A stretch of DNA of 64,000 nt, taken from Porticoccaceae bacterium (lineage in GTDB: Bacteria > Pseudomonadota > Gammaproteobacteria > Pseudomonadales > Porticoccaceae). Below are positions 60,908 to 63,592 of this stretch, in pieces. The notes beneath the pieces are model-generated. The model did not search any database and was not told the DNA's origin. It saw nothing but the letters and a program-made list of their open reading frames with translations. The stretch's first letter is position 1. Each line of letters starts with the position of its first letter. Position numbers and translations under genes: made by a program. The stretch lies in assembly GCA_029248755.1 (NCBI GenBank), contig JAQWIR010000026.1, positions 1 to 64,000 of the forward strand, in the 5' to 3' direction.

Positions 60908-61549
60908 TTACGAATGTTGAGTATTTTTGAGTACCACAATAGTCTTTCCATGCAGTGAAACAAGTTGCCTAGCGGCTAAATCTTTTAATATTTTGCCAAC
61001 CATTTCCCTTGAGCACCCAGCAAGCCTGGCAATTTCTTGTCGTGTAATTCGAAGATAGGTGCCATTGGTCTTTACTTGCGCGTCAGGTTCTTGGCATAAA
61101 TCAATCAATGTGCTGGCTACCCGACCGCTTACATCAAGAAAAGCTAGATCGCAGGCTTTTTTTGATGTGTGAGCTAGACGCATTGAAATTTGTCTGGCTA
61201 TAGCAAAGATAAATTCTGGATGCTTTGTACTTAGAGAAAAAAATTTGTTGTAACTAATTTCGCCTAACTCACATTTTGTTTTAGCTCTGATAAGCGCGCT
61301 TCGGGGATTTTCTTCAAATAATCCCATCTCGCCAACAAAATCGCCTGGATTGAGGTAGGTAAGAGTTATTTCTTTACCCTCGCTGTCTTCGGCAATAACA
61401 GCGACAGAACCACTCAAAATATAAAAAAGAGAACTACTACAGTCTCCAGAGTGAATAATGACACCCTTAGGCTTATAACTTCGCCTTCGGCAATTCTTAA
61501 GAAAAACCCCTATATTTCTTATAGGGAAGGTAGTTTTATGGTTGTTCAA
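60908..61549 (-). CDS. crp: cAMP-activated global regulator Crp/Vfr
   Basis: The 213-residue regulator has a cyclic-nucleotide-binding beta barrel (SSLFYILSGSVAVI, the cAMP pocket GDFVGEMGLFEENPRSALIRA with conserved Glu, Arg and Ser), a long dimerisation helix, and a winged helix with recognition sequence ITRQEIARLAGCSREMVGKIL, nearly that of Crp/Vfr. The start is TTG (61549) with an AGAGGA Shine-Dalgarno six bases upstream; no other upstream start fits. Divergent from an OsmC-family gene, as E. coli crp is from yhfA. Confidence 0.95.
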   Translation of the reverse strand: MNNHKTTFPIRNIGVFLKNCRRRSYKPKGVIIHSGDCSSSLFYILSGSVAVIAEDSEGKEITLTYLNPGDFVGEMGLFEENPRSALIRAKTKCELGEISYNKFFSLSTKHPEFIFAIARQISMRLAHTSKKACDLAFLDVSGRVASTLIDLCQEPDAQVKTNGTYLRITRQEIARLAGCSREMVGKILKDLAARQLVSLHGKTIVVLKNTQHS

Positions 61550-61704: not shown

Positions 61705-62118
61705 ATGAGAGCAGTAATTAAGTGGGTAGATGGCGTCATGTTTTTAGGTGAGTCCGGCAGTGGACATTCAGTGGTTATGGATGGTGCGCCAGAACAAGGC
61801 GGAAGGAATATGGGCGTTCGCCCTATGGAGATGCTTCTTCTAGGTCTAGGAGGCTGCGCTTCCTATGATGTGATTGCCATGTTGAAGAAAAGTCGTCAGC
61901 AGCTCGTTGATTGCAGAGCTGAAGTTGAGGCAGAGCGAGTTGACGCGGTTCCAGCGGTATTCAGTAAGATACATATTAAGTTTATTGTGACCGGTAAAGA
62001 CTTAAAAGAGAGCCAAGTAAAGCGTGCCGTTGATCTTTCCGCAGAAAAGTATTGTTCTGCCTCGATTATGCTAGGCGCTGCTGGCGTTGTTATGAGTCAT
62101 AGTTACGAAATTCAATAA
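61705..62118 (+). CDS. OsmC family protein (YhfA-like)
   Basis: The 137-residue protein has the OsmC fold: N-terminal strands, MEMLLLGLGGCASYDVIAML carrying the first reactive cysteine, and a C-terminal AEKYCSASIMLGA with the second. OsmC relatives reduce organic peroxides, but the YhfA branch next to crp has no proven function. Length and the position divergent from crp point to the YhfA branch. Confidence 0.88.
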   Translation: MRAVIKWVDGVMFLGESGSGHSVVMDGAPEQGGRNMGVRPMEMLLLGLGGCASYDVIAMLKKSRQQLVDCRAEVEAERVDAVPAVFSKIHIKFIVTGKDLKESQVKRAVDLSAEKYCSASIMLGAAGVVMSHSYEIQ

Positions 62119-62135
62119 ACTCTTAAATTTAAGGC

Positions 62136-62163
62136 AAAAAAAAGGGAGCCAAGGGTGGCTCCC
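62136..62163 (-). terminator. Minus-strand intrinsic terminator (module A)
   Basis: Perfect 7-bp GC-rich stem GGGAGCC/GGCTCCC with a six-base loop, followed on the minus strand by eight T (A8 at 62136-62143). No protein gene upstream on this strand would need it, so it implies an unannotated minus-strand transcript. Confidence 0.75.
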
Positions 62164-62260
62164 GATAAATTCTTTGGATAAATGCAAAGAGGGGTTTGGG
62201 GTAGTCAGTTGCTATCAAATAGCCAACTTTCTATGGCCGGCACTTTAATGCCGAGGTTGA
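62136..62260 (-). ncRNA. Predicted small RNA A (minus strand, tandem copy 1)
   Basis: Read on the minus strand: hairpin CGGCA/TGCCG (62253-62238), a 9-bp bulged hairpin (62228-62207), a single-stranded stretch with CAAACCCCTCTT (62198-62187), hairpin TCTTTG/CAAAGA (62190-62171), and a terminal hairpin GGGAGCC/GGCTCCC followed by eight T (62163-62136). This is the architecture of a bacterial sRNA with an intrinsic terminator. The 5' end is estimated from the upstream AATGCAT element. The orientation follows from the T run, which exists only on the minus strand. Expression is not known. Confidence 0.5.
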
Positions 62261-62268
62261 TATTAATC

Positions 62269-62300
62269 CAATGCATTTAATGCATAATAGTCATTACATT
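62269..62300. promoter_or_regulatory. AATGCAT-repeat element upstream of module A
   Basis: Contains AATGCATTTAATGCAT (62270-62285) followed by CATTACATTTTG. It aligns without gaps, with many identities, to the element at 62549-62586, including two TGCAT units in the same phase. It lies just before the presumed 5' end of module A on the minus strand and may be a shared promoter/operator. Confidence 0.45.
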
Positions 62301-62322
62301 TTGTTATGACTTTGATTTGGGC

Positions 62323-62372
62323 AAAAAAAAGGACCCTGGGAGGGTCCTAAAAAAAATCCTTAAGCAAGGATT
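62323..62372 (-). terminator. Double minus-strand intrinsic terminator (module B)
   Basis: Two successive stem-loops on the minus strand, AATCCTT/AAGGATT (62355-62372) and GGACCCT/AGGGTCC (62331-62347), each followed by a run of eight T. On the plus strand neither hairpin is followed by T. Confidence 0.75.
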
Positions 62373-62545
62373 AAGAGGGGTTTGTTACATGCTGCATTCT
62401 TAGGCATCGTTGTTTTTCACTTTTAGATTGCCTTTGATTCTTCGCTAAGTACTGAAGCGCTAAATCATTAAAACTTTGTTACTAATCTTTATAACTAATC
62501 ATTGTGTTCTTTATGATTGATACTATAGGGTCCTTCATGCCATAA
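62323..62545 (-). ncRNA. Predicted small RNA B (minus strand, tandem copy 2)
   Basis: Second module on the minus strand: the same 12-mer CAAACCCCTCTT (62384-62373), then hairpin AATCCTT/AAGGATT (62372-62355) running into a T run, then a 7-bp hairpin GGACCCT/AGGGTCC (62347-62331) followed by eight T (62330-62323). The T8-GCC end is shared with module A. The upstream AATGCAT element lies at 62549-62586, giving a longer predicted transcript (about 220 bases) than copy A. Start site and expression are unknown. Confidence 0.45.
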
Positions 62546-62548
62546 TTC

Positions 62549-62586
62549 TAATGCATTGTTTGCATTAACATTATGCATTTTGGTAA
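62549..62586. promoter_or_regulatory. AATGCAT-repeat element between module B and the LysR gene
   Basis: Contains AATGCATT (62550-62557), TTTGCATTAA and TTATGCATTTTG, three spaced TGCAT units in about 25 bases, immediately upstream of the divergent lysR-type start (62606). LysR-type proteins commonly bind such interrupted repeats in shared divergent promoters. Its resemblance to 62269-62300 suggests duplication with module A. Confidence 0.45.
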
Positions 62587-62605
62587 TAACCCATAGGAAA
62601 CGTCA

Positions 62606-63592
62606 ATGAATCTTCAAAGATTATCTCGACTAGATTTAAATTTATTAGTTTCGCTTCAGGCGCTTTTAGAAGAGAAAAGTGTGACTAAAGCCGCTGAGCG
62701 GTTATTTATAACCCAGCCCGCTATGAGTCGAGTCTTACAGCGATTGCGAGATCAACTAGAAGATCCATTGTTTACCAGAACTGGCAATGAGCTAGTTCCA
62801 ACCCCACGGGCTAGGGCCCTGCAGATGCGGTTGCCAGGTTTATTAGATTCAGTGTTAGAAATGGTTAGTGAGGGTGAGTTTGATCCTGCTACTTATGTGG
62901 GTGAAATTAATATTGCTGTTCCAGAGTTTGTGGCAATCTCCTTAGTGTCTGAACTAACGCGGGTACTCACTGAACATGCACCTAATGTAATCCTATCCAT
63001 ATCCAGTGAAACTGACTCAGTAGAGGGCGAATTGGCAGAGGGCGTATTGGACTTTGCCATAGATGTTGAGCGTGGAGTCAGTGAAGATATTTCCTCAAAA
63101 AGGTTGGCTATTTTTACCCCTTCAATTTGGATGAGGGAAGGACACCCTCTAGCCAACAAATCAGAAGTTACCCTTGATGAGATTTTGGAATATCCTTTTG
63201 TACAATATTATTTGCTAATTGCCAAACGAGTTAGTGCGCGAACCGATGCGCGATTTGACCGGGCACTGAGAGATTTAGGAAGAAAGCGTAAAAAAGCGTT
63301 GGTGACTAATCAGCTAATGACGGCTATGGAAACAGTGTGCGGTACTGATTGTCTGATGGTTGCGGCTAAATACGGAATGACAATGGATCGCGAGTTGTAC
63401 CGAATTGTGCGAAAGCGCTATCCGGCGGGGCTACCCCATGTTGGCACAATTCCAATGGCCCTATTACAGCACAATAGAACAGCAAGCTCACCCATTCATA
63501 GCTGGGTAGCTAATCAGGTGGTAAATTTGATTAATGGGTGGCAACAAGATCTTGATGCAGACAGAGAAAGTATCTCTAATTTAAAACAGTAA
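62606..63592 (+). CDS. LysR-type transcriptional regulator
   Basis: The 328-residue protein has the N-terminal winged helix (LDLNLLVSLQALLEEKSVTKAAERLFITQPAMSRVLQRLRDQLEDPLFTR in family-typical pieces) and a periplasmic-binding-protein-like effector domain (INIAVPEF, LDFAID). It most resembles the NodD/NahR/LeuO-like branch by its start, but I cannot assign an effector. TGCAT repeats lie just upstream, and two predicted minus-strand RNAs lie beyond them, so it may control those and itself. It converges on coq7, two bases apart. Confidence 0.92.
   Translation: MNLQRLSRLDLNLLVSLQALLEEKSVTKAAERLFITQPAMSRVLQRLRDQLEDPLFTRTGNELVPTPRARALQMRLPGLLDSVLEMVSEGEFDPATYVGEINIAVPEFVAISLVSELTRVLTEHAPNVILSISSETDSVEGELAEGVLDFAIDVERGVSEDISSKRLAIFTPSIWMREGHPLANKSEVTLDEILEYPFVQYYLLIAKRVSARTDARFDRALRDLGRKRKKALVTNQLMTAMETVCGTDCLMVAAKYGMTMDRELYRIVRKRYPAGLPHVGTIPMALLQHNRTASSPIHSWVANQVVNLINGWQQDLDADRESISNLKQ

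Follow-up and report, generated by a model that had tools for sequence, protein, structure and literature searches.

The window, a stretch of 64,000 nucleotides from a Porticoccaceae bacterium genome (1.65 Mb in 44 contigs, 88.7% complete), contains a 487-bp gap between an OsmC-like gene and a LysR-type regulator gene, and the question raised by this gap is what the two related modules on its minus strand do. A preliminary description had taken them for tandem small RNAs; what it had observed was confirmed, and its small-RNA interpretation was partly supported. The reading preferred here, with a probability of roughly 0.6, is that the modules are LysR-controlled sibling small RNAs (sRNAs) that would act against Shine-Dalgarno sequences in the way of AbcR1/2 and would be noncoding descendants of a dual-function RNA. 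The gap and its surroundings include the following features:

60908-61549, minus strand: CRP-family gene (CRP domain by Pfam)
61705-62118: OsmC-like gene, osmC (OsmC domain by Pfam)
62119-62605: gap between osmC and lysR holding both RNA modules, which lie on the minus strand
62606-63592, plus strand: LysR-type regulator gene, divergent from the RNA modules (Pfam HTH_1 and LysR_substrate)
near the gap: trpD- and trpC-like genes, named by eye
near the gap, minus strand: coq7-like gene, named by eye

Both domains of the LysR protein scored above their cut-offs (HTH_1 65.5 bits with a cut-off of 26.6, LysR_substrate 60.6 bits with a cut-off of 28). The best NCBIfam matches of the protein, BsrA, CitR and YidZ, had scores far below their cut-offs and were rejected, and its relatives by sequence in the PDB were general LysR regulators. 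The protein was matched in all 61 family genomes, paralogues being included in this count.

The modules themselves are composed as follows:

62321-62516, minus strand: RNA module A, about 195 nt, with a predicted start near 62516 and a leader without the small ORF common in relatives
62373-62384, minus strand: C-rich motif of module A, CAAACCCCTCTT (12-mer search and alignment of A-type modules)
62355-62372, minus strand: hairpin of module A, AATCCTTGCTTAAGGATT (folding and alignment)
62322-62348, minus strand: terminator hairpin and U8 tail of module A (folding and terminator scan)
62136-62236, minus strand: RNA module B, about 100 nt, with a predicted start (folding and covariance model match)
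62187-62198, minus strand: C-rich motif of module B, CAAACCCCTCTT (12-mer search and alignment of B-type modules)
62171-62190, minus strand: hairpin of module B, TCTTTG..CAAAGA (folding and pairing statistics)
62136-62163, minus strand: terminator hairpin and U8 tail of module B (folding and terminator scan)

The 12-mer reported earlier as identical in both modules (62198-62187 and 62384-62373) was found at these two places and nowhere else in the whole 1.65 Mb of the 88.7% complete window genome. Folding predicted the hairpin beside it in both modules. Both also end, as had been described, in a GC hairpin followed by T8 and GCC, and T-runs trail the terminators on the minus strand only. Module B folded better than shuffled sequences (z -3.6 and -4.0 at two lengths), module A only slightly better (z -1.8 and -1.4). 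No protein gene on that strand explains the terminators, which agrees with the preliminary description: none of the minus-strand ORFs of at least ten codons inside the gap was gene-like, the longest having 29 codons and a TTG start, and a minus-strand ORF overlapping the motif of module A is disrupted in the relative L071.

The conserved ACCCCTCTT sits between leader and hairpin and is predicted to be single-stranded, in module B lying partly within the stem. As the UCUU of the module B 12-mer is in the hairpin stem, the CCCC part alone is free there. The earlier proposal of an anti-Shine-Dalgarno CCCCUC therefore holds as far as a conserved motif fit for pairing is concerned, but in module B not over its whole length.

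The gapless alignment of the two modules put forward earlier was detectable but modest: the best ungapped alignment had a score of 16, which was equaled by two of 200 shuffles. Cross-detection by covariance models is a better test of kinship. Model R1 was built from 50 A-type modules and model R2 from 35 B-type modules, and in both directions the matched window module was absent from the model that found it. R2 detected module A (E 2.3e-9) and R1 module B (E 8e-6). Covariance models from both modules, a check that had been suggested, thus each detected the sibling in the window, and modules A and B are kin.

No Rfam family was found in the window at its gathering score, just as no known family had been recognized before. 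The family suhB/mmgR (RF00519) has a hairpin, a C/U-rich linker and a terminator in common with the modules. It reached 23.2 bits in the window (on module A) and 22.7 and 22.4 bits on the two modules of locus L105, all under its gathering score of 41 bits, and membership was rejected, as was ncS54, a sub-threshold match in the window only. A search of the order with the A-type model matched five of 194 genomes, three of them with true modules; its filters were strict and missed diverged modules in genomes G003, G011, G015 and G022. The matches in G137 and G073 were rejected, one lying by eye at tandem tRNA-like genes with terminators and the other in AT-rich sequence. In the open-license literature no papers on such RNAs were found, and a limited search of it yielded nothing on small RNAs of SAR92-type bacteria, which are marine heterotrophs.

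Conservation was studied in the best 80 of 348 LysR relatives (99 to 48% identity), mostly from SAR92-clade and Porticoccaceae genomes. A module was called by a fixed rule, on the strand opposite to LysR, from a T-run of at least five, a stable stem before it and a C-rich stretch 20-70 nt upstream. At least one module was present beside LysR in 70 of these 80 loci and at least two in 47. Among the ten loci without a call, L110 ends at a contig edge 414 bases from LysR, L134 (on the same contig as L030) has a module that the rule overlooked, and eight relatives (L118-L121 and L123-L126) have LysR but no C-rich module at this place. In L118, trpD- and trpC-like genes (by eye) adjoin LysR in place of osmC. 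Loci L125 and L126 retain a box-like element without the C-rich motif, and L021, a relative of L126, retains a terminator without it.

Chance repeats in an AT-rich gap are an extremely unlikely explanation of these structures. Terminator-like sites form easily and the fold of module A is hardly distinguished from shuffles, but three such sites were found where 0.8 were expected, and the cross-matches of the models together with the conservation among relatives already disfavor chance.

The six close species compared (the window and L071-L075) share 93% identity in the motif, hairpin and terminator of module A and 90% in those of module B. Identity was 87% (A) and 81% (B) in the box region upstream, 64% (A) and 73% (B) in the leaders, 48 and 53% in the spacers, and 80% in the 3' part of osmC. 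The modules and box A are thus conserved above the neighboring coding sequence and box B about equally with it.

The motif core and the stems are also conserved in the alignments of the modules, and the refuting outcome named for such alignments in the preliminary description was not obtained. A-type modules read ACCCCTCTTAATCCT..AGGATT and then the terminator, and in other genera different C-rich motifs occupy the same position, e.g. CTCCTAACCCCCTGTAT and TTACTCCCTCTATATC.

The covariation expected of the stems was found in part. Five of the six pairs of the A hairpin are invariant in all 50 rows, and a stem that hardly varies gives no evidence on covariation. Pairing is found in 90% of the cells of the B hairpin UCUUUG/CAAAGA, compared with no more than 65% for slid versions, and one pair of this hairpin is U-A in 19, C-G in 12 and U-G in four of the 35 rows. 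Double-change cells numbered 12 in this hairpin versus 4.6 in shuffles, and none of 500 shuffles reached 12; covarying pairs and pair types were no more numerous than in shuffles, so that only the cell counts exceed them. Other relatives have variants such as UCCCU/AGGGA. The terminator stems vary with pairing maintained, although intrinsic terminators keep pairing while changing anyway.

The AATGCAT elements that had been noted upstream of the modules are present within a promoter-like stretch, and they sit in LysR-type boxes, which the earlier reader had overlooked:

62541-62566, minus strand: box A, AATGCAAACAATGCATTAGAATTATG, a LysR-type TGC-N7-GCA and T-N11-A palindrome found by likeness to the seed
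62522-62527, minus strand: -10-like TATAGT of module A, 13 nt after box A
62261-62286, minus strand: box B, TATGCATTAAATGCATTGGATTAATA, a diverged copy matching the seed at 17 of 26 positions, below the count cut of 18
62242-62247, minus strand: -10-like TAAAGT of module B, 13 nt after box B

Altogether 113 boxes were picked from 68 of 81 loci (the 80 and the window) by likeness to the seed, spacing being left unused. The conserved stretch upstream of the modules has the consensus nGtcATtACaaAaanGCATAnnnntaATGCAAAcAATGCATTtGnATTATG (99 boxes). A -10-like hexamer stands 13 nt past the box in 85 of the 113 boxes. The -35 of the module promoters is weak, as expected for an activated promoter, and a generic promoter scan of the window listed neither RNA promoter. 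The palindrome TGC-N7-GCA is present in 94 of the 113 boxes and fits the T-N11-A rule for LysR, a rule stated in PMC8844928. The two modules are thus each preceded by a separate promoter-like region in which a palindromic LysR-type box and a -10 stand at mostly constant spacing, and the divergent LysR is accordingly the likely activator of both.

In the generic scan, a plus-strand promoter-like site for lysR (62517-62546) overlapped box A, and LysR could therefore also repress its own gene through this box. The same overlap is what would be expected if the elements served only to regulate lysR and osmC, with terminators as insulation, the minus-strand RNAs being by-products. This explanation is very unlikely, because the motif, hairpin and terminators, and not the box alone, are the most conserved parts, and because a separate box belongs to the B-type module, which lies 180 bp from box A.

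Across the window genome, the box with at most three mismatches was matched 17 times, including the LysR site itself, and the reversed control three times. Seven of the other matches were inspected, and most of these were judged by eye to lie within coding sequence; a possible exception is L067 (G000:C40:4596-4612). There a box-like AGTGCAAATAATGCATC is followed by GTATTTATG, and the site is possibly another member of the regulon.

In many relatives one of the modules carries a tiny hydrophobic protein, which the preliminary description had overlooked. Its ORF (MTLVYxLIGFTGLAGAAIAKDDF..., 34-40 codons) lies between the box and the C-rich motif in 39 of the best 80 of 348 loci, and 15 of the first 29 residues are invariant in these 39. 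When diverged forms of up to 48 codons are counted by rule, a tiny ORF is present in one module in 43 of the 80 loci. Pairwise differences among 32 of the ORFs, frames trimmed by rule to an inner ATG being excluded, amounted to 2259, 437 and 5306 at codon positions 1, 2 and 3, respectively, and by this pattern the tiny ORF in the relatives appears to be a genuine gene kept by purifying selection. No Pfam or NCBIfam family matched the tiny proteins at cut-off, and the weak matches were judged to be chance. Loci L007, L089-L091, L107 and L113 have a reshuffled array of two A-type modules in which the distal one bears the ORF; arrays of this sort suggest that modules undergo duplication and exchange.

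A tiny protein of this kind was found in nine of the ten genus genomes searched, with two of the nine alignments overrunning the ORF stop. It is absent from the window genome, which is incomplete, yet has the locus intact, and the same rule found no tiny ORF in L070-L075. The ORF-free leaders of the window lineage retain the promoter and the bases directly after it. ORF and C-rich motif together are accordingly a feature of the 43 relatives, in which they presumably share a transcript, and not of the window.

The coding relatives bring in the alternative that the modules are small-protein mRNAs, or remains of them, under LysR, with the C-rich motif working in cis and having no trans targets. 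The motif might, for example, pair with the Shine-Dalgarno sequence of the tiny ORF or help termination. The presence of the ORF on one module in more than half of the 80 relatives agrees with this, as do the tiny ORFs that precede C-rich stretches in other families and the unconvincing pattern searches for trans targets. It is nevertheless unlikely, since in the window and L070-L075 no ORF is seen while the motif is still 93% identical, and since the B-type modules are separate units in which no ORF was found. Retention of the motif in lineages lacking the ORF favors a function in trans, as in the reading of the modules as sibling sRNAs.

A target check with the C-rich motif, of the kind suggested in the preliminary description, was made by searching for complements of the motif before start codons and produced no convincing target. 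AAGAGGGGT at most 12 nt before an ATG was found at 14 sites versus 11 for the reversed control in nine genomes, and three of the 14 were the opposite strand of the modules themselves. With AGAGGGGT before start codons, 23 sites versus 13 for the control were found in four genomes; 20 of the 23 precede frames of less than 60 codons, and the excess is not explicable by real starts. One AGAGGGGT site common to G021 and G029 was rejected, because on the opposite strand it falls inside an open frame 125-130 codons long. An exact-pattern search is a blunt tool for finding targets.

The same outcome would suit a role away from mRNA start sites, in which the RNAs serve as sponge or decoy and capture an RNA-binding protein or another sRNA; the short, stable form of the duplicated RNAs and their repeated motif would suit it too. 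Such a role is considerably less plausible than pairing with messages, because a C-rich single-stranded motif beside a hairpin and a U-tail is typical of base-pairing sRNAs such as AbcR1/2 (PMC8844928).

In S. meliloti, which offers the closest worked-out parallel, AbcR1 and AbcR2 are homologous sRNAs, AbcR1 depending on the LysR-type LsrB, and they carry two anti-Shine-Dalgarno motifs, CUCCUCCC and UUCCCCUC, through which mainly mRNAs of transport and metabolism are silenced (PMC8844928). Several likenesses to AbcR1/AbcR2 under LsrB/VtlR in Rhizobiales can be drawn from PMC8844928, PMC7486931 and PMC5461406. Both systems have sibling RNAs, a LysR-type regulator that is an activator there and a predicted one here, T-N11-A motifs upstream of a sigma-70 promoter (a putative one here), and an anti-Shine-Dalgarno motif between stem-loops, UUCCCCUC there and ACCCCUCUU here. 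In Agrobacterium and Brucella the same regulator (LsrB/VtlR) also activates small-protein genes, as described in PMC7486931; these are separate genes, whereas in the relatives studied here the small protein is encoded on the RNA itself. Membership in the AbcR family was rejected, as there was no Rfam match at threshold and the LsrB/VtlR box GCAT-N3-TG-N3-T occurred in only 11 of the 113 boxes on either strand. If our reading is right, the modules would work like AbcR while being, on the tests made, apparently members of neither AbcR nor an Rfam family.

The ORF-bearing relatives resemble VcdRP of Vibrio cholerae, a short RNA with a tiny ORF for a protein of 29 amino acids and a base-pairing part for which four cytosines in a row are required (PMC8672173). 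According to the same paper, VcdRP differs in being repressed by CRP and not known as LysR-controlled, and its protein binds citrate synthase. The Neisseria sRNAs NgncR_162/163 are also described as trans-acting siblings that control metabolism (PMC9973317).

Taken as a mechanism, the preferred reading would have the divergent LysR activate the separate promoter of each module by way of a T-N11-A palindrome that lies immediately before a weak -35. Both RNAs would terminate at their intrinsic terminators with a U8 tail that would suit Hfq, and an hfq gene, above its family cut-off, is present in the window genome. The exposed CCCCUC would then pair in trans with Shine-Dalgarno regions and lower the translation of a set of messages. 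The RNAs probably damp the translation of other messages when switched on by LysR. The modules would have originated from a dual-function RNA combining a tiny hydrophobic protein with a C-rich tail, and the window lineage, in which the reading frame is absent, would have retained the RNA part.

How old such an RNA may be was approached with a LysR search of 125 genomes of the order, in which 14 matches outside the family were found at E <= 1e-60 and 11 of them were inspected (L161-L171). By eye, seven of the 11 other-family loci (L163, L165-L169 and L171) have a tiny hydrophobic ORF, 27-30 codons long and divergent from LysR, and eight have a C/T-rich stretch with a terminator. The four kinds of these ORFs that were scanned matched no Pfam or NCBIfam family. 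Tiny ORFs beside LysR in other families point to an ORF-bearing ancestor, and we infer that the ORF was lost in the window lineage rather than gained elsewhere. In some other Porticoccaceae genera modules are present with no ORF found by the rule, from which it follows that loss or gain of the frame happened repeatedly. Tentatively, and at somewhat less than even odds, an old LysR-controlled dual-function RNA, with a tiny membrane-type protein and an anti-Shine-Dalgarno tail, would extend across several families of the order, and the window lineage would have duplicated it and lost the coding part, leaving a pair of regulatory RNAs.

If true, the locus would be a comparative case of noncoding sRNAs arising from small-protein messages while the regulator and its operators are retained. 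As lineages with and without the frame occur in the same RNA, the transition from a small mRNA to a noncoding sRNA, or the reverse, would be directly testable. The locus would also be a gammaproteobacterial counterpart of the LsrB/AbcR circuit, either independent or distantly related, and this likeness raises the question of convergence versus common descent. For the SAR92-type bacteria, a circuit of LysR, sRNA and small protein at a single place in the genome would offer a ready experimental handle on a regulon.
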